From NCBI RefSeq assembly GCF_002563855.1, contig NZ_PDJQ01000001.1:620001-684000 (forward strand): a DNA stretch of 64,000 bases, written 5' to 3'. Source of the stretch: Tepidiforma thermophila. Its GTDB lineage: Bacteria > Chloroflexota > Dehalococcoidia > Tepidiformales > Tepidiformaceae. Shown piece by piece: positions 5,936-59,579 of this stretch (its first letter is position 1; every line of letters begins with the position of its first letter). The position numbers and the translations under genes were made by a program. A model generated the notes under the pieces. That model saw nothing but the letters and a program-made list of their open reading frames with translations. It made no database searches and was not told where the DNA came from.

Positions 5936-6222
5936 TGCAGCTTGGAGCTTGGAGCCTGGAGCCTGGAGCTTGAGTATACCCAACTCCTCCCTCCTCCCTC
6001 CTCCCCTGGGGCGGGGCGCGGGCGCGGCGGGCGGGGCTCCCTCCTCCCTTTTCCCTGGGCGGGGCGCCGGGGCCGCGGGCGGGGCTCCCTCCTCCCTCCT
6101 CCCTGTGGCGGGGCTGCGGGGCCGCGGGCGGGGCTCCCTCCTCCCTCCTCCCTGTGGCGGGGTGCGTGGGCCGGGCGGGGCTCCCTCCTCCCTCGGGGCG
6201 GGGCTGCGGTGCGGCGGGGGCC
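5936..6222. repeat. G-rich intergenic repeat tract, locus 1
   Basis: About 290 bases with no credible gene. It begins with a simple repeat of CTTGGAG/CCTGGAG units (5940-5973). Four to five units then follow in which TCCCTCCTCCCTCCTCCC alternates with GGGGCGGGGC plus a short GC-rich spacer. Unit length is roughly 45-60 bp. The minus strand carries runs of GGGAGGAGGGAGGAGGG, which could form G-quadruplexes. The tract begins right after the patatin stop codon and lies upstream of clpS. The same units recur at 11575-11772 and 59172-59545. Confidence 0.85.
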
Positions 6223-7211: not shown

Positions 7212-8942
7212 ATGGCCCGACGCCTCCTCCTGTCCGCTGCTGCCGCCTTCGCCGCCCTTGCGCTGGCCTGCTCCGACCGCGCACCCTCGAACGCCGACGC
7301 CGGCACCGCCGGACCCGGCCCTGCCGCGCTCCAGTGGTCGAACTGCGGCGGCCGCGCCGAGTGCACCACCCTCCAGGTCCCGCTCGACTGGGACAAACCG
7401 TCAGGCGAAACGATCGAGATCGCCGTCATCCGCTACCCGGCGCGCAAGCCCGACCAGCGGATCGGCGTGCTGATGGCGAACCCCGGCGGCCCCGGTGGCT
7501 CCGCCATCGACTTCCTCCGCGCCTGGCAGAGCATCCTCGCCCCCGACATCCGCGACCGCTTCGACCTCGTCGCCTTCGACCCGCGCGGCGTCGGCGAAAG
7601 CACCCCCATCCTCTGCCACGACCGCCTCCAGGAGCTCGTCGCCGTCGACCCCGACCCTGACACCGAGGCCGAGTGGCAGGAGGCCGAGCGCGTCGCGAAG
7701 GCGTTCGCTGACGACTGCGCCGCAGCCGCCGGGCGCCTCCTCCCCCACGTCGGCACGAAGGACGTGGCGCGGGATATGGACGCCCTCCGCGCCGCCCTCG
7801 GCGAAGAGCAGCTCACCTACGTCGGCTACTCCTACGGGACGACGCTCGGCGCCGTCTACGCTGACCTCTTCCCCGGGCGCGTCCGCGCCTTTGTGCTCGA
7901 CGGCGGCACCGACCAGTCGCTCGACTACGAAACCCTGGCCGTGACCCAGATGGTCGGCTTCGAACGGGCCCTCCAGGCCTATCTCGACGACTGCGCGGCG
8001 CGGCGCTGCCCCCTCGGGCGCGACGGCAACCCCCGGGCCGCCATCGACCGCGTCATCGCCGCTGCGGAGCAGGCGCCGATCCCCGCGCCCGGCGCCGACC
8101 GCCCGGCCGGCCCCGGCGAAGTCCAGCTCGGCATCATCTCCGCCCTCTACAGCACGTCGTACTGGAATCAGCTCACGCAGGCGCTCGTCCGCGCGCTCGC
8201 CGGCGACGGCACCGGCCTCGTCCAGCTCACCGACCAGTACCTGCTCCGCAACCCCGACGGCTCCTACCCGAACCTGATCGAAGCGAACTACGCCGTTAAC
8301 TCGGTCGATTCGGTCTGCCCGAAAGACCCGCGCGCCTACCGGGCGATGGCCGACCGGTTCGCGAAGATTGCGCCCACCTTCGGCCGGTCGGCGGCCTCGA
8401 GCGGGCTCGTCTGCGCCTACTGGGCGGCCCCGCCCGACCCGCTCGGCGTGCCCCGGGCCGCCGGCTCGGCGCCCATCCTCGTCATCGCCACGACCAACGA
8501 CCCTGCCACGCCCTACGAGTGGGGGAAGGCCCTGAGCGAGCAGCTCGAGAATGCCGTCCTGCTGACCTACCGCGGCAACGGCCACACCATCTACGCCCAG
8601 GGCAACGCCTGCGTCGACGAGGTGGTCAACGCCTACCTGCTGAACCTGGCGCTGCCCGCCGCGGGCACCACCTGCGGCGACGGTCCGCCGCCGCCCGGGC
8701 AGGCCGCCGAACCGGCTGCATCGCCGCCGACAGAGGCCGCGACGCCGTCGCCCGCTGCCCGCCTGGCCACCCCAACGCCGGCCGCCGCCGGCGACCCACC
8801 GGCCGAGAGCGGCCAGTCCGGAGGCGGCGAGCCGGCCACGTGGGGCTACTGGCTGGTCGGCCTGCTCCTGCTGGCGACGGCCATCGCCTTCGTCGGCATC
8901 GGCGTCGCTCAGTCCCGCCGCGCGCGCCCGCCCGGCCCCTAA
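7212..8942 (+). CDS. Secreted alpha/beta hydrolase lipoprotein, TAP-like
   Basis: A 576-residue exported hydrolase of the tripeptidyl-aminopeptidase/proline-iminopeptidase type. The signal peptide ends in a lipobox (LALAC, Cys20). The alpha/beta core has NPGGPGGS (oxyanion loop, 90-97), Ser207 in VGYSYGTT, and the C-terminal TAP-like segment with ...ATTNDPATPYEWG and GNGHT (Asp and His of the triad). A Pro/Thr/Ala-rich linker and a final membrane helix (WGYWLVGLLLLATAIAFVGIGV) precede a basic tail. Having both a lipobox and a C-terminal helix is somewhat unusual. ATG 7212 is chosen at the signal peptide; the frame is open far upstream only because GC-rich DNA lacks stops. The last codons form part of the direct repeat that bounds the low-GC island. 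Confidence 0.9.
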   Translation: MARRLLLSAAAAFAALALACSDRAPSNADAGTAGPGPAALQWSNCGGRAECTTLQVPLDWDKPSGETIEIAVIRYPARKPDQRIGVLMANPGGPGGSAIDFLRAWQSILAPDIRDRFDLVAFDPRGVGESTPILCHDRLQELVAVDPDPDTEAEWQEAERVAKAFADDCAAAAGRLLPHVGTKDVARDMDALRAALGEEQLTYVGYSYGTTLGAVYADLFPGRVRAFVLDGGTDQSLDYETLAVTQMVGFERALQAYLDDCAARRCPLGRDGNPRAAIDRVIAAAEQAPIPAPGADRPAGPGEVQLGIISALYSTSYWNQLTQALVRALAGDGTGLVQLTDQYLLRNPDGSYPNLIEANYAVNSVDSVCPKDPRAYRAMADRFAKIAPTFGRSAASSGLVCAYWAAPPDPLGVPRAAGSAPILVIATTNDPATPYEWGKALSEQLENAVLLTYRGNGHTIYAQGNACVDEVVNAYLLNLALPAAGTTCGDGPPPPGQAAEPAASPPTEAATPSPAARLATPTPAAAGDPPAESGQSGGGEPATWGYWLVGLLLLATAIAFVGIGVAQSRRARPPGP

Positions 8943-9021
8943 CCCCGCCCTCGCGTACACTCCGGTTCACCCCCCACCACGGGACCGGAGGACCCGCGTG
9001 GCCAATGCCGCGCCCGGCGCC
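8889..9021. repeat. Left direct repeat of the HEPN island (about 130 bp)
   Basis: This segment covers the last 17-18 codons of the hydrolase gene, the intergenic TACACT promoter, an ACCGGAGGA ribosome site and the first 8 codons of an MFS gene (GTG GCC AAT GCC ...). It recurs at 10155-10278 with about six substitutions and three small indels by eye. Here the MFS reading frame stops after a few more codons, where the low-GC island begins. Confidence 0.9.
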
Positions 9022-9041
9022 TTTTGGCTGGGCTAAACACC

Positions 9042-9776
9042 TCATCCCGGACTCGGAAAAACGTCTGGCAGGTTTGGGAATTGCTCCAACAGGCGCACAC
9101 GTAGCGAGTTTCTGTGATCATCAACGTGACGATTCGCGCTCTTTGGTTGATTCGCGATCATCCAAAAGAAATGAAGGGAATCGGAAAAGAAGTGATTGAC
9201 CCGTTCTGCAAATAATTCGGCAAAAACAGGACTAACATAGCTTCTGACGTCATCTCTCCAAACAGGATCAGCAAACTCTGCCGATGGATGGACAACCATA
9301 TTGCGCAACCTGAAGAGTGCAGACAGATGAGAATGTAATTGCCCACCCGTTTCCTTTTTCAGATCGAAGGCTAACTCCATAGTCTGAGTTATTTTCTTTG
9401 CCGCAGATTTTCTGTTCTTTTTCCAAGAAGCTTTCACATCTTTTGTCGAACGTATCGAATCGGCAATTACCTTCTGAAAGGACTCCCACGCGATCGCCAA
9501 AGAGACGATTGTCTGAGAGCAAGAGCTCAATTCCGATTCCAACATGCGAGCCCTGTTATCAGCGTCGGATGTATCCCAAACTGCAGCTATTTCGTTGCCA
9601 GCAACTAGTGATTGATCTCTATGTTTGCTTGCAATCCATATCCAAAAAGGCGCGGCTGAATATCGTAGCTTCATCGAAAATTGAGGAATAAAATTGCCAT
9701 CAGGTCTTTCAATAATATGAATATTAACCATTGGCTGGACGCCACGGATAATCAGAAAACCTTTTTCGCCAGTCAT
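9042..9776 (-). CDS. HEPN-like protein of a low-GC island
   Basis: A 244-residue protein not recognised as a named family. The second half is helical and contains LRNMVVHP: Arg158-Asn159-x3-His163, which matches the R-polar-x3-His signature of HEPN ribonucleases and HEPN folds common in toxin-antitoxin and abortive-infection systems. The N-terminal half is beta-rich (IHIIERPDGNFIPQF). No partner gene lies beside it. The DNA is strongly AT-biased (23 of 60 bases G/C at 9361-9420) against roughly 70 % around it, a clear sign of transfer. ATG 9776 is used; ATG 9731 is an alternative start. The HEPN call rests on a short motif and is tentative; that it is a coding gene is well supported by an intact frame in AT-rich DNA. 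Confidence 0.65.
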   Translation of the reverse strand: MTGEKGFLIIRGVQPMVNIHIIERPDGNFIPQFSMKLRYSAAPFWIWIASKHRDQSLVAGNEIAAVWDTSDADNRARMLESELSSCSQTIVSLAIAWESFQKVIADSIRSTKDVKASWKKNRKSAAKKITQTMELAFDLKKETGGQLHSHLSALFRLRNMVVHPSAEFADPVWRDDVRSYVSPVFAELFAERVNHFFSDSLHFFWMIANQPKSANRHVDDHRNSLRVRLLEQFPNLPDVFPSPG

Positions 9777-10154: not shown

Positions 10155-10278
10155 TTCATCGGCATCGCCCAGTCCCGCCGCGCGCGCGCCCGGCCCCTAA
10201 CCCTGCCGTCGCGTACACTCCGGTTCACCCCCACCACGGGACCGGAGGACCCGCGTGGCCGATGCCGCGCCCGGCGCC
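10155..10278. repeat. Right direct repeat of the HEPN island (about 124 bp)
   Basis: Second copy of 8889-9021. It includes a truncated hydrolase tail (IGIAQSRR then stop), the TACACT promoter, ACCGGAGGA and the GTG start of the MFS gene. A 27-bp piece of it (GTGGCCGATGCC...) occurs again at 10330-10356, 75 bp further on and in frame. Confidence 0.9.
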
Positions 10279-11543
10279 CTCGGAGGCCCGCGGACCCGCC
10301 CGGCCCGCTTCTTCTACGGCTGGTGGATCGTGGCCGATGCCGCGCCCGGCGCCCTCCAGGCCGCCCTCCTCGGCCAGGCCTACGGCGCCTGCGTCGTCCT
10401 CCTCCGTGAGCAGTTCGGCTGGAGCACGACGATGCTCTCCGCCGCCTCCAGCCTCCGCGAGGCCGAAAGCGGCATCCTCGGCCACTCCACGGCGCCCTGC
10501 TCGACCGGTTCGGGCCGCGAAAGGTCGCCTCGGCCGGCGTCGTCATCCTCGGTCTCGGCTTCATGCTCTTCAGCCGCGTGCAGGAGCCCTGGCAGTTCTA
10601 CGCCGCCTTCCTCGTCATCGCCGTCGGCGCGAGCATGTCGGGCTTCCTCACGGCCACCTTCGCCGCCGTCCACTGGTTCGAACGCCGCCGCGCCACAGCC
10701 ATCTCGCTCACCTCGGCCGGCTTCGCTATCGGCGGCATGTGCGTGCCGCTCACCGTCCTTGCCCTCGAAAGCCTCGGCGGGCGCACCACGGCGCTCCTCT
10801 CCGGGGTCCTCATCATCGCGGCCGGGCTGCCGCTTGCCCGGCTCTACCGGCACCACCCCCATGAGCTCGGCCTCGAACCCGACGGCGGCCCGCCGGCAGC
10901 CGCGCGGCGCGCCACGGGCGGCCTCGGCGCGCGCCGGCGCACCGCGACTTCACCCTCGGCGAGGTCGTCCGCACCCCGGCCTTCTGGCTGATCTCGCTCG
11001 GCCACGCCTCGGCCCTGTTCGTCGTCGTCGCGATGAGCGTGCACCTCGTCTCCCACCTGCGCGACAGCCAGGGCTAGACGCTCGGCCAGGCCTCCGCCGT
11101 TGTGCTGGCGCTCACCTTCACGTTCATGGTCGGCAACCTCACGGGCGGGTTCCTCGGCGACCGGGTGAACAAGCGCGCCCTGCTGGTGGCCTGCATGGCG
11201 ATGCACTGCACCGGGCTGCTCATCCTTTCGCATGCCGCCAACCCGTGGATGGTCGCCGCCTTCGTGGTCATCCACGGCCTCGCGTGGGGGTGGCGCGGCC
11301 CCCAAGATGACCGCCATCCGGGCCGACTACTTCGGCCGGGCCGCCTTCGGCACGATCATGGGCGTCTCGAACCTGGTCATCCTGAGCGGCACGATCCTCG
11401 GCCCGCTCATCGCCGGCGTCGCCTACGACCGCACCGGCAACTACCGCCTCGGCTTCGATATCCTCGCCTTCATCGCCCTCGCCGGCTCCGTCTTCTTCCT
11501 CCTCGCCAGCCGCCCATCCCCGCCGCCCTCCCGCCGCCCCTAG
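10255..11543 (+). pseudogene. Decayed MFS transporter gene
   Basis: An MFS permease of about 400 residues can be pieced together only across several frames. From GTG 10255 one reads FFYGWWIV and FGWSTTMLSAASSLREAE. The frame is then lost near 10490 and resumes with FMLFSRVQEPWQFYAAF (from 10563). It is lost again near 10940 and resumes with DFTLGEVVRTPAFWLISLGHASALF. It meets an in-frame TAG at 11075-11077, and shifts once more near 11300 before GPKMTAIRADYFGRAAFG...LLASRP and the stop at 11543. Three frameshifts and one nonsense codon make a working product very unlikely. The surrounding genes are intact, so general sequencing error is a poor explanation. The gene lies just downstream of the HEPN island. 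Confidence 0.85.
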
Positions 11544-11574: not shown

Positions 11575-11772
11575 AAGCTCCAAGCTCCAACCTCCTCCCC
11601 GGGGCGGGGCAGGGCTGCGGCGGGGCTCCCTCCTCCCTCCTCCCTGGGGCGGGGCGCGGGCCGGGGCGGGGCTCCCTCCTCCCTCCTCCCTGGGCGGGGC
11701 GGGGCCGGGGTGGCGGGGCTCCCTCCTCCCTCGGCGGGGCGCGGACCGGGGCGGCGGGGCTCCCTCCTCCCT
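11575..11772. repeat. G-rich intergenic repeat tract, locus 2
   Basis: A short run of AAGCTCC units (11573-11594), the reverse complement of the CTTGGAG units of locus 1, is followed by about four units of TCCCTCCTCCCTCCTCCCTG alternating with GGGGCGGGGC. The tract fills the gap between the convergent MFS pseudogene and fucosidase and abuts the fucosidase stop codon directly. Confidence 0.85.
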
Positions 11773-11773
11773 C

Positions 11774-13012
11774 CTACCCCCACTCCACCGCCAGCACCGT
11801 CGCCAGCGGGTCCAGCTCCTCCTCAGGAACCTCGATCGTCAGCTCGCCCGGCGGGTCGCGCCCGAGCAGCCGGTCCACGATGGCGCAGCGGCCGGAGGTC
11901 GCCAGTTCGCGGCCTGTGGCCACGATCCACGCCCGGCGCACGTGGTCGATCGGCACGCCCCGCACCGTCACGCGGTCGTACGGCCGCATCAGGAGGTGGA
12001 GGTACGTCACGTTCCGCCGCTTCGTCGCCGGGCCGTAGAACTGCCACGGCTCCAGCCCCGGTTCGGTGCCGATGATCGCCTCGCCGTGGCGGGCCATCCA
12101 GCCGGCCACCTCCTCGAGGATGGCGGTCTGCTCCGGCGGCAGCGTCCCGTCGCCCCGGGGGCTCACGTTCAGCAGCAGGTTCCCGCCGCGCCCGGCCACC
12201 TCGCAGAGCGTGTGCACCACCTGCCGCGGCGATTTGTAGCGGGTATCGGCCGGCACGTACCCCCAGCTCTCGTTCAGCGTCATGCAGGTCTCCCAGCGCT
12301 CCCCGGGCGGCTGCGGCGGCACGAACTGCTCCGGCGTCGCGAAGTCGCCGGCCCCGGGCAGCCGGTCGTTGACCAGGATGCCGGGCTGCAGCCGCCGGAT
12401 GAGCGCCTCCAGCTCCTTCGCCCGCCACTGTTCCGGCGTGCGCTCCCAGCCGCCGTCGAACCAGAGCAGGTCGATCGGCCCGTAGTTCGTCAGCAGCTCG
12501 CGCACCTGTTCGAACATGTCGGCGAGGAACCGCTCCCAGCCCTCGGGCGTCGGCTGGCGGCCGCGCCCGAACCGGTACGGCCGGTCATCGTCGGTGAGCG
12601 CCGGGTAGCCGGGGTGGTGCCAGTCGCAGAGCGAGAAGTAGAGCCCGACGCGCAGCCCCTCGGCGCGGAACGCCTCCACGTACTCCCGGACGAGGTCGGC
12701 CCCGGCGGGCGAATGGGCCACGCCGAAATCGCTCGTCTTCGTGTGGAACATGGCGTAGCCGTCATGGTGCTTCGCGGTGAAGACTGCGTACTGCATCCCG
12801 CAGCGCTTCGCGAGGCGGGCGAGCGCCGGGAAGTCGCGGTTCCGCGGGTCGAACGTGGCCGCCGAGGCCTGGTACGCCGCGACCGTCATCGCGCCCGTGG
12901 GGAGGGCGACGTTGCCGCCGGCCATCGGCCACGACAGTTCGACTCCCTGCTGGGACGCGTGCCCCCAGTGGATGAACATGCCGAAGCGGGCGGCCGCGAA
13001 CCAGTCTGTCAT
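11774..13012 (-). CDS. Alpha-L-fucosidase, GH29
   Basis: A 412-residue glycoside hydrolase family 29 enzyme that removes alpha-L-fucose by retaining hydrolysis. It has the N-terminal RFGMFIHWGHAS motif, YAVFTAKHHDGYAMF (residues 75-89), the nucleophile Asp186 in DLLWFDGGW, and GGNLLLNVSPRGDG typical of the family. A short beta-rich domain ends the protein. ATG 13012 gives the family N-terminus; there is no signal peptide, so it appears cytoplasmic and would act on imported oligosaccharides. It stands alone, with a 35-bp gap to the upstream tmk stop and a repeat tract directly after its own stop. Confidence 0.95.
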   Translation of the reverse strand: MTDWFAAARFGMFIHWGHASQQGVELSWPMAGGNVALPTGAMTVAAYQASAATFDPRNRDFPALARLAKRCGMQYAVFTAKHHDGYAMFHTKTSDFGVAHSPAGADLVREYVEAFRAEGLRVGLYFSLCDWHHPGYPALTDDDRPYRFGRGRQPTPEGWERFLADMFEQVRELLTNYGPIDLLWFDGGWERTPEQWRAKELEALIRRLQPGILVNDRLPGAGDFATPEQFVPPQPPGERWETCMTLNESWGYVPADTRYKSPRQVVHTLCEVAGRGGNLLLNVSPRGDGTLPPEQTAILEEVAGWMARHGEAIIGTEPGLEPWQFYGPATKRRNVTYLHLLMRPYDRVTVRGVPIDHVRRAWIVATGRELATSGRCAIVDRLLGRDPPGELTIEVPEEELDPLATVLAVEWG

Positions 13013-37776: not shown

Positions 37777-39120
37777 ATGACCATCACCCACGAGGCGCTG
37801 CGCGAGGCCTTCCGCGCCCGCGGCCGCCAGCTCTGGCTCGTCGGCGGCGCCCTCCGCGACCGCCTCCTCGGCATCCCGTCGAAGGATATCGACTACGCCA
37901 CCGACGCCCTCCCCGACGAAATCGAGGAGATCGCCCGCTCCCTCGGCGCGAAGGTGAGCACCGTCGGCAAGCGGTTCGGCACCATCGGCGTCCTCGTCGA
38001 GGACACGTGGGTCGAAATCACCACCTTCCGCGGCGACAGCTACGCCGGCGGCAGCCGCTGGCCCGAGGTCACCTTCGGCCGCACCATCGAAGAGGACCTC
38101 GCCCGGCGCGACTTCACCATTACCGCCTTCGCCGAAAACGCCCACACCGGCGAGTGGCTCGACCTCTTCGGCGGCGAGGCCGACCTCCGCGCAGGCATCA
38201 TCCGCGCCGTCGGCGACCCGGCCACCCGCTTCCGCGAAGACCCCCTCCGCATCCTGCGCGGCGTCCGCTTCGTCAGCCAGCTCGGCTTCCGGCTCGACCC
38301 GGCCACTGCCGCCGGGATGCGCGAAACCGCCCACCTCATCGCCACCCTCTCGCAGGAGCGCGTTACCGCCGAGCTCGACAAGCTCCTGCAGGGGCGGGCC
38401 CCGGCGGCCGGCCTCGAGGCCCTCCGCGAGGTCGGCGCTCTTCCCCACGCCCTCCCCGAGCTGGCCGCCATGCCCGGCTGCGAGCAGAACCGCTTCCACA
38501 GGTTCGATGTCTGGGGCCACACGCTCGCGACCGTCGAGGCGATCGCCGCCACGCCGGAGACGCTCCGCCTGCGCCGCTGGGCAGCGCTCCTCCACGACAT
38601 CGGCAAGCCTGCCGTCCGCCACCGGAAGCCGAACGGCGAATGGGGCTTTTACCGCCACGAGGTCGTCGGCGCCGAGCTCGCCGCTGCCCTCCTCGAGCGG
38701 CTTCGCCTCGGCCGGGCGGAAAGCCACGTCGTCGTCCTCCTCGTCCGCCGCCACATGGACCGCCCCGACCCGGCCGACCGCCGCGCCGTCCGCCGCTTCA
38801 TGGCGAAGCTCGGCGGCCACTGGCGCGACCTCCTCGCGCTCAAGCGCGCCGACAACGCCAGCCACACCTACGACGACACCGCCTACCACGACGCCCTCGA
38901 GGCGGCCTGCCTCCGCGCCGAGCAGGAGGAGGCCGAAGCAATCCGCGCCGAAAGCCCGCTCTCCGGCGACGAGCTGGTCCGGATGTTCGACCGCCCCCCG
39001 GGGCCGTGGGTCGGGGTGATCAAGCGGCAGCTCGGCGCCATGGTGCTCGACGGCGAACTCGCTCCCGGCGATAAGGAGGCCGCCGCCCGCATCGCCCGCC
39101 GCCTCATGGGCCGCGATTGA
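37777..39120 (+). CDS. cca: CCA tRNA nucleotidyltransferase (class II poly(A)-polymerase family)
   Basis: A 447-residue enzyme that builds or repairs the 3' CCA of tRNAs. The nucleotidyltransferase head has LVGGALRDRLLG (21-32), metal-binding Asp37/Asp39 in KDIDYAT, EEDLARRDFTITAFA, and the RNA-binding RFREDPLRILRGVRF. An HD phosphohydrolase-like domain follows (LLHDIGKPAVRH, FYRHEVVGAELA). No signal is visible that separates full CCA addition from A- or CC-adding subtypes. Its last seven codons are part of the 57-bp direct repeat that brackets hicBA. Confidence 0.92.
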   Translation: MTITHEALREAFRARGRQLWLVGGALRDRLLGIPSKDIDYATDALPDEIEEIARSLGAKVSTVGKRFGTIGVLVEDTWVEITTFRGDSYAGGSRWPEVTFGRTIEEDLARRDFTITAFAENAHTGEWLDLFGGEADLRAGIIRAVGDPATRFREDPLRILRGVRFVSQLGFRLDPATAAGMRETAHLIATLSQERVTAELDKLLQGRAPAAGLEALREVGALPHALPELAAMPGCEQNRFHRFDVWGHTLATVEAIAATPETLRLRRWAALLHDIGKPAVRHRKPNGEWGFYRHEVVGAELAAALLERLRLGRAESHVVVLLVRRHMDRPDPADRRAVRRFMAKLGGHWRDLLALKRADNASHTYDDTAYHDALEAACLRAEQEEAEAIRAESPLSGDELVRMFDRPPGPWVGVIKRQLGAMVLDGELAPGDKEAAARIARRLMGRD

Positions 39121-39154
39121 CCATCCCCGGCCGCCCGCGCCTGTGGTAGCCTGC
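39098..39154. repeat. Left 57-bp direct repeat of the hicBA cassette
   Basis: It spans the last seven codons and stop of cca, the intergenic region and the TAGCCT promoter that drives hicB. An identical copy lies at 39690-39746. I compared the two base by base and found no mismatch over 57 bp; both flanking bases differ. Confidence 0.97.
39147..39152 (+). promoter_or_regulatory. Extended -10 box (TGG-TAGCCT) of hicB, inside the repeat
   Basis: TAGCCT is preceded by TGG and ends 6 nt before the hicB ATG 39159. It is the left copy of the duplicated promoter. Confidence 0.6.
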
Positions 39155-39158
39155 GGCC

Positions 39159-39461
39159 ATGGCCGCCCGGTACACCGGAGTCCTCGCCCGCGACGCCGAG
39201 GGGTGGTACACCGCTACCTGCCCGGCGATGCCCGGCGCCGTCGCCGAGGCCGCGAGCCGCGACGAGGCCATCGATGGACTGCTACGCGCGCTCGCGGCAT
39301 GGCTCGATGCGGCCGCCCGCCGCGGGGAGCGCCCGCGCGATGAGACGCCCGAACTTGTGGCCGATGCGGTTGCCGGAGCGCTCCGCGACCTTGCCGCGGA
39401 AGGCGCCCCGCTGGTGGTCGAAACCATCGCACTCAGCCTGCCCGCGGCGCAGGTTGCGTGA
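39159..39461 (+). CDS. hicB: HicB-like antitoxin
   Basis: A 100-residue protein of the HicB antitoxin family, which has a partial RNase H-like fold. It opens with YTGVLARDAEGWYTATCPAMPGAVAEAASRDEAIDGLLRALAAWL, the typical 'D.E.GY...PdlPG..t.G.t.eEA..n...al' layout. The C-terminal part (LVVETIALSL) has no obvious ribbon-helix-helix, so autoregulation is uncertain. It would bind and block HicA. It is leaderless from the duplicated promoter and overlaps hicA by 4 bp. The order hicB-hicA is reversed from the classical one. Confidence 0.85.
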   Translation: MAARYTGVLARDAEGWYTATCPAMPGAVAEAASRDEAIDGLLRALAAWLDAAARRGERPRDETPELVADAVAGALRDLAAEGAPLVVETIALSLPAAQVA

Positions 39462-39688
39462 GCCGCCTGGCCGGGTTCTCCGCGCGCGAGGTCGGCCGGG
39501 TTGCCGAGCGGCTCGGCTGGCAGCTCGAACGGCAATCCGGGTCGCACCTGGTGTACGTTCCGCCCTCGCAGGGGCTCCCCATCCTCGTTGTGCCCAACCA
39601 CCGCGAACTGCGTCCCGGCACGGTCCGTGCCCTGATCCGCGCCATGGGAATCGACGTCGACACCTTCCTGCAGATCGCCGGGCGGTGA
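39458..39688 (+). CDS. hicA: HicA-like mRNA interferase toxin
   Basis: A 76-residue HicA toxin with a dsRBD-like fold. It has SAREVGRVAERLGWQLERQSGSHLVYV with the catalytic His30, then PILVVPNHRELRPGTVRALIRAMGIDVDTFLQI, an almost complete family consensus. HicA cleaves mRNA and tmRNA unless bound by HicB. It starts within the hicB stop (GTGA). It ends 1 bp before the right repeat copy, which places the toxin gene exactly at the cassette border. Confidence 0.92.
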   Translation: MSRLAGFSAREVGRVAERLGWQLERQSGSHLVYVPPSQGLPILVVPNHRELRPGTVRALIRAMGIDVDTFLQIAGR

Positions 39689-39689
39689 A

Positions 39690-39746
39690 GCCGCCTCATG
39701 GGCCGCGATTGACCATCCCCGGCCGCCCGCGCCTGTGGTAGCCTGC
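39690..39746. repeat. Right 57-bp direct repeat of the hicBA cassette
   Basis: Perfect copy of 39098-39154. Here the cca 3' end is an untranslated relic, while the promoter part serves the amine oxidase gene at 39755. Confidence 0.97.
39739..39744 (+). promoter_or_regulatory. Extended -10 box (TGG-TAGCCT) of the amine oxidase, inside the right repeat
   Basis: Right copy of the duplicated promoter; it ends 10 nt before ATG 39755. Confidence 0.55.
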
Positions 39747-39754
39747 CGGCCGCA

Positions 39755-41179
39755 ATGACCGTCACGCCCGAACGCCTCCGCGAACTCGCCGCCGACCCGC
39801 AGCCCGCCCCCGCCGGCCGCGAGCACATCCTCGTCCTCGGCGCCGGGATGGCCGGCCTCGCCGCGGCCTTCGAGCTCCGCCGCCGCGGCTTCACCGTCAC
39901 CATCCTCGAAGCCCAGCCCCGTGTCGGCGGCCGCATCCAGACCTTCCGCGAACCGTTCTCCGACGGCCTCTCCGGCGAAGCCGGCGCCATGCGCATCCCC
40001 CGCGCCCACGACCTCGTTCTCCACTACGTCGAGCGGTTCCGCCTCCCGACGGTCCCCTTCGTCATGGAGAATCCCCGCACGTACGTCGCCTTTAACGGCG
40101 AACGGGTCCGCCGCGGCGACTTCGATTCTGCGCAGCACGCCGGCGACTTCGAACTCCAGCCCGGCGAAACCGACCTCCCGATCGGCACCCGCTGGGAGCG
40201 GGAGATCGCCCCCCTGCTCGCAACCATCCGCGAGCACGGCGACCTCGGCTGGGAGGAGGTCGCCAGCCGGTACGACCACTACTCCCTCTCCGAATTCCTC
40301 GAATCCCGCGGCTGGTCGCAGGGCGCCATCGAGCTCTGGGGGCTCCTCACCCACATGGAGCCGTTCATGAACAGCGCCTTCCTCGAAGTGCTTCGCGAAG
40401 AGGCCGGGCACTGGTTCACCGATGTCGTCACCATCCCCGGCGGCATGGACCGCCTGCCCCGCGCCTTCCTCGCCGAACTCGGCGACGCCATCCGCTACGG
40501 CATGCGCGTCATCGCGATCCACCAGTCGCTCGAAGGCGTGCAGGTCCGCTGCCGAACCGTCGCCGGCGAACACACCTTCACGGCCGACCGCGCGATCATC
40601 ACCATCCCCTTCTCCCTCCTCCGCCACATCGAAATCACCCCCGCCCTCAGCCGCGGCAAGCAGCGCGCCATCCGCACCCTCTACTACGATGCGGCCACGA
40701 AGATCTTCTTCCAGTGCCGGCGCCGCTTCTGGGAGGAGGACGAGGGCATCAGCGGCGGCGGCTCCGTCACCGACCTCCCGATCCGCACCATCTACTACCC
40801 CGCCGGCGGCGAGCCCGGCGGCCGCGGCATCCTCCTCGCCAGCTACACGTGGGCCGAAGACGCCCGCCGCTGGGGCACGCTCAGCCCCGAGGAGCGCCTC
40901 GCCCAGGCGATCGAAAACGTCGAAGTCATCCACCCCGCGGTCCGGCAGGAGTTCGAACTCGGAGCCAGCAAGGTCTGGCACCAGGACGAGTTCGCGGGCG
41001 GCGCTTACGCCCTCTTCGAGCCGGGCCAGCAAACCCACCTCTACCGCCACATCATCGCCCCGGAGGGCCGGCTGCACATCGCCGGCGAACACGCCTCCCT
41101 CGCCCACGGCTGGATCCAGGGCGCCGTCGAATCCGGCCTCCGCTGCGTCGCCGAAATCCTGGACCGGGCTGCGGGCTAG
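39755..41179 (+). CDS. Flavin monoamine oxidase / L-amino-acid oxidase-like
   Basis: A 474-residue FAD-dependent amine oxidase. It has the dinucleotide site LVLGAGMAGLAAAFEL (27-42), TILEAQPRVGGRIQTF, a conserved GAMRIP near residue 76 and the C-terminal FAD motif LHIAGEHASLAHGWIQGAVESG. No signal peptide is visible. It resembles L-amino-acid oxidases (GG doublet, GAMRxP). It would oxidise amino acids or amines to imines, producing H2O2. The stop overlaps the convergent hypothetical gene by 4 bp. Its promoter is the right copy of the 57-bp repeat, so the hicBA insertion left its expression intact. Confidence 0.93.
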   Translation: MTVTPERLRELAADPQPAPAGREHILVLGAGMAGLAAAFELRRRGFTVTILEAQPRVGGRIQTFREPFSDGLSGEAGAMRIPRAHDLVLHYVERFRLPTVPFVMENPRTYVAFNGERVRRGDFDSAQHAGDFELQPGETDLPIGTRWEREIAPLLATIREHGDLGWEEVASRYDHYSLSEFLESRGWSQGAIELWGLLTHMEPFMNSAFLEVLREEAGHWFTDVVTIPGGMDRLPRAFLAELGDAIRYGMRVIAIHQSLEGVQVRCRTVAGEHTFTADRAIITIPFSLLRHIEITPALSRGKQRAIRTLYYDAATKIFFQCRRRFWEEDEGISGGGSVTDLPIRTIYYPAGGEPGGRGILLASYTWAEDARRWGTLSPEERLAQAIENVEVIHPAVRQEFELGASKVWHQDEFAGGAYALFEPGQQTHLYRHIIAPEGRLHIAGEHASLAHGWIQGAVESGLRCVAEILDRAAG

Positions 41180-59171: not shown

Positions 59172-59545
59172 AAGGGAGGAGGGAGCCCCTCCCCTCCATA
59201 CCTCCCCCCAGGGAAGAGGGATGAGATGCTCTCCCTCCTCCCTCCTCCCTCCTCCCTCGGGGCGGGGCCGGAGCGGCCGCGGGGCTTCCCCTCCCTCCTC
59301 CCTCCTCCCTGGGGTGGAGGGGCGGCCGGGCGGGGCTCCCTCCTCCCTTCTCCCTTCTCCCTCCTCCCTCCTCCCTGGGGCGGTGCCGGTGCGGCCGCGG
59401 GGCTCCCTCCTCCCTCCTCCCTCCTCCCTCCTCCCTCGGGGCGGGGCCGGTGCGGACGCAGGGCTCCCTCCTCCCTCCTCCCTCGGGGCGGGGCCGGGAC
59501 GGACGCGGGGCTCCCTCCTCCCTCCTCCCTCGGCGGGGCGGCCGG
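59172..59545. repeat. G-rich intergenic repeat tract, locus 3
   Basis: The largest of three such tracts, about 370 bases. It opens with AGGGAGGAGGGAGCCCC, then carries roughly eight units of TCCCTCCTCCCTCCTCCC alternating with GGGGCGGGGC plus a short variable spacer (GGAGCGGCCGCGG, GGTGCGGACGCAG and similar). Because both orientations occur at its start, a hairpin with the first TCCC unit is possible. There is no coding capacity beyond low-complexity frames. Confidence 0.85.
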
Positions 59546-59579
59546 GAGGGAAGGGGCCAGGCTTCTAACAAATTTCCTA

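Follow-up and report, generated by a model that had tools for sequence, protein, structure and literature searches.

A hicBA toxin-antitoxin pair between long duplicated target sequences suggests chromosomal entry without a transposase of its own

Solitary toxin-antitoxin pairs on chromosomes raise the question of how they spread when they have no mobile element of their own. The case considered here is a hicBA pair that lies between two identical 57-bp sequences, downstream of cca, in the window (the whole stretch of 64,000 nucleotides that was analysed). The features of the locus are as follows.

37777..39120, + strand: cca, the CCA tRNA nucleotidyltransferase gene (PF01743, PF12627 and HD matches)
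39098..39154, + strand: left copy of the 57-bp duplicated target, 100% identical to 39690-39746 and single in relatives with an empty site
39159..39461, + strand: hicB antitoxin gene, 100 aa (HicB_lk_antitox in family members; HicB structures by profile)
39458..39688, + strand: hicA toxin gene, 76 aa (PF07927, E 3e-15; the profile matches solved HicA)
39690..39746, + strand: right copy of the 57-bp duplicated target, 100% identical to 39098-39154
39755..41179, + strand: flavin amine oxidase family gene, downstream of the insertion (PF01593, E 4.6e-84)

The two copies are spaced by 592 and flank a tightly trimmed hicBA pair, exactly as an earlier sequence-only reading of this DNA had reported. 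The segment contains the 3' end of cca as its left part, the stop codon, intergenic DNA and the motif TAGCCT. The cca end and its stop are present as described earlier, but the number of cca codons is corrected from seven, as the 20 nt of cca before the stop in the left copy make six whole codons and 2 nt. The start of hicB (39159) is 4 bp past the end of the left copy and the hicA stop ends at 39688, 1 bp short of the right copy; both positions agree with the earlier claim. The 535 bp between the repeats hold hicB and hicA only. No recombinase, transposase or integrase gene was found in this insert, and no terminal inverted repeat of the insert was found among the arms listed. The assembly is a single contig.

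HicA matches PF07927 with 56.5 bits (cutoff 27) and keeps the GSH motif, and hicA and hicB overlap by 4 nt in the same operon. The single HicB sequence scores under the Pfam cutoff. When the family was used, HicB_lk_antitox was matched by 12 of 12 aligned HicB members at E values up to 1 (best 1.5e-9), and the family profile retrieved solved HicB structures, the best named HicB at E 1.6e-7. HicB folds also rank first for the predicted HicB fold, which is weak evidence because it was made from one sequence only (pLDDT 62.6) and no match reached E <= 0.001. No recognised DNA-binding domain was found in the hicB product. These matches assign the gene pair to the HicBA type II toxin-antitoxin systems, with growth arrest by the toxin and relief by HicB predicted.

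The site was compared within the genus, for which six genomes are in the set. G004, G001 and G002 have one copy of the segment and no hicBA, and cca is followed directly by the amine oxidase gene; the empty site that the sequence-only reading had proposed to look for was thus found in three sister genomes. In G003 this place is occupied by a related hicBA, enclosed by a near-identical repeat pair of that genome's own (49 aligned columns with one indel, 37 bp of these perfect). The core CTGTGGTAGCCTGC is found once per empty genome and twice in G000 (the present genome) and in G003. The incomplete G005 (72%) gave no match. The duplication without hicBA was found in no genome of the genus. In each filled genome, both repeats bear the differences that set this genome apart from its empty sister: both G000 copies share their sequence and differ at about four positions from G004, and both G003 copies share changes absent from G001. 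In the cca and amine oxidase trees G000 pairs with G004 and G003 groups with G001, which indicates that filled and empty sites alternate. A repeat pair in relatives without hicBA, or an assembly artefact, had been named as grounds against the insertion; the empty genomes have one copy each, and the same arrangement stands in the independent genome G003. On sequence comparison, the 57-bp repeat is a duplicated target and not an assembly artefact.

The duplicated segment also contains a candidate promoter, once in each copy.

39147..39152, + strand: TAGCCT, probable leaderless -10 for hicB, 6 nt before the hicB ATG (TANNNT enrichment)
39739..39744, + strand: second TAGCCT, in the right copy, 10 nt upstream of the amine oxidase ATG

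In 224 kb of this genome, scanned with ORFs of 150 aa or more and shuffled controls, TANNNT peaks 6-10 nt upstream of first-ATG ORFs (23 cases versus about 5 expected from the shuffles). A spacing of 6-10 nt between motif and start is that of leaderless transcripts. The TAGCCT motif is kept 9-10 nt before the amine oxidase gene in relatives, and the promoter core is present as one copy in relatives without hicBA and as two in G000 and G003. The repeat therefore probably carries a duplicated leaderless promoter. The leaderless -10 position supports, at the level of a predicted promoter, the proposal that the insertion left host promoter sequence in front of both hicB and the amine oxidase gene. 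With a leaderless promoter, the start codon has to follow immediately, which would account for a cassette trimmed to its genes.

Similar layouts were searched for around other hicA genes. A PF07927 search of the family genomes found hicA in 31 of 38. The census covers 95 hicA loci, of which 94 have more than 1 kb on both sides and one is the purQ case, where the contig ends in the right flank. A locus qualified when a direct repeat enclosed it within 1 kb with a score of at least 30 and an identity of at least 84%, repeats between hicBA paralogues being excluded. Such long direct repeats enclose 15 of the 95 hicA loci, compared with 3 of 840 windows taken at random from this family (Fisher p 3e-13) and none of 54 PIN or ParE toxin loci (p 0.001 versus hicA); the score and identity cut was set after the first results, so these p values are descriptive. 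The very low count in random windows indicates that the repeats flanking hicBA are not due to chance. The count is one of enclosing repeats, with the empty site compared at a minority of loci. The qualifying repeats range from 44 to 1215 bp. Three loci (L166, L168 and L190) go back to a single old event that they share, and L140 and L158 lie at a common site, so that the 15 loci correspond to about 13 events. About 84% of hicA loci show no such repeat, and other entry routes or repeat decay must therefore exist. In a wider phylum sample outside the family, 5 of 61 hicA loci qualified, one of them marginal at 83.9%. Two of these five are at tRNA-Ala genes, with one copy intact and one decaying, and another two may involve dispersed repeats.

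The repeats were inspected for their content, with target protein names, tRNAs excepted, read by eye from the translations. The repeat is a tRNA-Gln 3' end at L140 (45 bp, perfect), a purQ-like 3' end at L139 (143 bp, 94%), a response-regulator 3' end at L141 (57 bp, 84%) and a DNA-methyltransferase-like 5' end at L178 (52 bp, perfect). At L166, L168 and L202 it belongs to an acyl-CoA dehydrogenase-like gene, with a perfect length of 82 bp in G053 and 1.2 kb at 87-88% in G049 and G052. Judged by these assignments, the inspected repeats are ordinary host sequence, different at each locus. The hicA stop lies within 5 bp of the repeat, or overlaps it, at L031, L141, L187, L202 and L136. G022, a congener of G053, carries the cassette at the corresponding site but lacks the left copy; an origin at the time of insertion is thus not proven for all repeats. 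The qualifying repeats at L295 and L351 may be dispersed intergenic repeats.

Several candidates were dropped as examples: L045, L170, L192, L034 and L189 are tandem hicBA paralogues, L059/L091 have an 18-bp repeat and are tandem cassettes, and L150, L148 and L204 have dispersed intergenic repeats. The weaker enclosing repeats at L187 and L103 (scores 22-24) are outside the census count. In L166, L168 and L190, an acyl-CoA-dehydrogenase-like region common to the three genomes encloses hicBA as two copies of about 1.2 kb with 87% identity, an old duplication that was apparently kept. At L202 (519-1152), a vapBC-like pair, named from translations, adjoins the duplicated end of the acyl-CoA-dehydrogenase-like gene and the hicBA pair, which indicates that toxin-antitoxin pairs cluster at the end of this gene.

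Within the window, the other close-range direct repeats of at least 24 bp are a G-rich tandem and dispersed repeat and a second duplicated-target insert, which has a short internal repeat. The features of this second insert are as follows.

8897..9024, + strand: left copy of the second duplicated target, comprising a hydrolase 3' end, intergenic DNA and the beginning of the downstream gene, 94-98% identical to 10157-10281
9042..9776, - strand: orphan 244-aa ORF in the AT-rich insert, no family over cutoff
10157..10281, + strand: right copy of the second duplicated target, 94-98% identical to 8897-9024

The GC content of the second insert is 46.7%, versus 70.9% for the window. Its target, present here as copies of about 125 bp, is a single copy without insert in G004, and overlapping single-copy matches were found in G003 and G002. 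PADLOC, PHROGs and plasmid searches returned nothing for this insert, and no recognisable toxin-antitoxin was found in it. An orphan-ORF insert with the same signature indicates that the process is not specific to toxin-antitoxin pairs.

The hicBA architecture likely originated by insertion with long target duplication. The repeats match the single copy at the empty site, they are long and variable, and no transposase is present. The hicBA pair would have entered the intergenic site between cca and the amine oxidase gene with a long stretch of target duplicated. As the duplicate spans the cca end and the probable leaderless promoter, cca would keep its stop, the amine oxidase gene would keep its promoter, and hicB would use the second promoter copy. 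As the leading candidate route, a small circle or fragment, in which hicBA stands next to target-like DNA, could recombine with the chromosome there, as in single-crossover integration. Such a crossover would direct cassettes to conserved sequence or return them to the same site; taken alone, this route is possible rather than probable. Recombination between the repeats would restore the empty site, and the layout predicts an exact 592-bp excision product. Addiction arises when a toxin outlasts its antitoxin. Selection would then disfavour cells that delete the cassette and would account for the persistence of repeat arrangements that look unstable. Three elements of this account are what we infer: a circle as the intermediate, retention through addiction, and promoter activity. 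A further, tentative reading treats bare hicBA pairs as minimal mobile elements of about 0.5 kb without a recombinase, which would exit as circles with one target copy, re-enter related genomes by homologous recombination and hold their repeats by killing deleters. Recombination through the target segment would then return the cassette to the same site or steer it to conserved stretches, for example tRNA genes.

The main rival to the crossover is template switching, in which a stray hicBA fragment was caught and local DNA duplicated; in a related version, a staggered break was filled in. Under either, hicBA would be enriched only as addictive genes survive. This explanation accounts for the variable repeat length, for inserts that are not toxin-antitoxin pairs (9042-9776) and for the missing recombinase, but not readily for sister cassettes that use the same site in two branches of the genus. 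No Ku was found in this genome, which makes Ku-dependent end joining of filled-in staggered breaks the less likely branch. As a whole, we consider this rival doubtful. It is quite improbable that a trans-acting tyrosine recombinase integrated the cassettes site-specifically, with the repeats as attL and attR. Enzymes of this kind classically choose tRNA or gene 3' ends, as seen for several targets here. Against this route, the repeats are unrelated in sequence and about 40 to 1215 bp long, the duplicated DNA is in some cases a gene 5' end or a promoter (L178 and the second insert), and the inserts leave no room for a recombinase gene. By inspection, no short att core common to the insertions was found, and the repeats at different sites are unrelated. 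The widely varying lengths, unrelated sequences and lack of a recombinase in the insert also make the repeats unlike a transposon footprint. That the segment was duplicated before hicBA was inserted, or that the repeat is an assembly artefact, is hardly credible, given that no genome of the genus has the bare duplication and that the layout recurs in the independent G003 and, at other loci, in separate assemblies.

The history of the cca site was then considered from the two filled genomes. In a tree of nine related pairs, the G000 and G003 cassettes are sisters with a support of 99.7/100. Their DNA is 69% identical, compared with 88-89% for the flanks, and hicBA keeps 43 of 87 fourfold-degenerate sites between the two genomes, compared with 387 of 526 for cca plus the amine oxidase gene (p 1.3e-5). 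The lower retention makes the cassettes appear older than the split of the hosts, unless hicBA mutates faster, and the excess of cassette over flank divergence points to separate insertions or homogenised repeats. The sequence-only reading had taken the perfect identity to imply a recent event. The insertion with duplicated host DNA stands; the recent date is called into question by G003, which is on a different branch of the genus and has a near-perfect pair at the same site around a cassette far more diverged than its flanks. Judged from these comparisons, either separate re-acquisition at the same site or losses with repeat homogenisation would be needed. The latter is the alternative of a single ancestral insertion in the genus with vertical descent, in which the cassette was lost in G004, G001 and G002 through repeat recombination, gene conversion keeps the repeats identical, and hicBA evolves fast. 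The sister cassettes share the site, orientation and right-hand edge, as this history expects, and the repeats would yield a clean loss. Three losses and ongoing homogenisation in two lineages are required, however, and both the difference in fourfold sites and the unlike left repeat edges of G000 and G003 argue against it. This history is rather unlikely. It concerns the site and is compatible with an original insertion by target duplication.

Similar arrangements are known in other systems. For restriction-modification genes of Helicobacter pylori, "insertion with long target duplication" was described (Nobusato et al. 2000, as cited in PMC3874152, PMC1643837). As summarised in these citing papers, the inserts resemble hicBA as small addictive units without their own transposase, polymorphic between relatives, with a long, variable direct target duplication in the order of 100 bp. 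Compared with that summary, the present case concerns a type II toxin-antitoxin in another bacterial group and at many loci, some repeats exceed 1 kb, and a probable leaderless promoter comes with the duplicate. The MaOC1 toxin-antitoxin of Microcystis aeruginosa PCC 7806 lies between two identical 152-bp direct repeats (PMC7935541). In the excerpted account, it is similarly a type II pair with identical direct repeats downstream of a host gene; unlike hicBA here, it is ParE/ParD-like and its repeats are 120-147 bp from the genes, with a 16-bp inverted repeat, and target duplication is not among the terms of that excerpt (PMC7935541). Transposed Arabidopsis genes also moved into sites whose flanking repeat matches the empty orthologous site, and a circle model was proposed (PMC2869330); these are mostly ordinary genes of a eukaryote, moved singly. 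Integrons and superintegrons bear toxin-antitoxin cassettes (reviewed in PMC2654758). They resemble the present locus as tight gene cassettes with toxin-antitoxin pairs. Integron cassettes use attachment sites and an integrase, whereas the hicBA repeats are ordinary host sequence that differs per locus. The conserved core of attC is of the GTTRRRY type. Read directly, the 57-bp repeat (cca end and promoter) has no such core.

The recurrent layout suggests that small toxin-antitoxin pairs enter chromosomes with long target duplication and without their own transposase. Insertion of this kind, known for restriction-modification genes, is read here for a type II toxin-antitoxin, and its mechanism is what we infer from the layout. 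Relative to the cited summaries, this would extend the mechanism from restriction-modification genes to a second addictive gene class and another bacterial group. The signature of a duplicated target, a cassette cut to its genes and an empty sister site makes the spread of toxin-antitoxin pairs testable, and the locus is a natural test case for whether unstable direct repeats are guarded against deletion by addiction.

Two minor observations were also made. The relatives G015 and G016 carry two or three divergent hicBA pairs arrayed in tandem (L138 4304-5399, L137 17-1550). The G-rich repeat of about 47 bp (GGGGCTCCCTCCTCCCT...) forms three tandem clusters at 6004-6213, 11593-11806 and 59205-59557 and is dispersed through the window.
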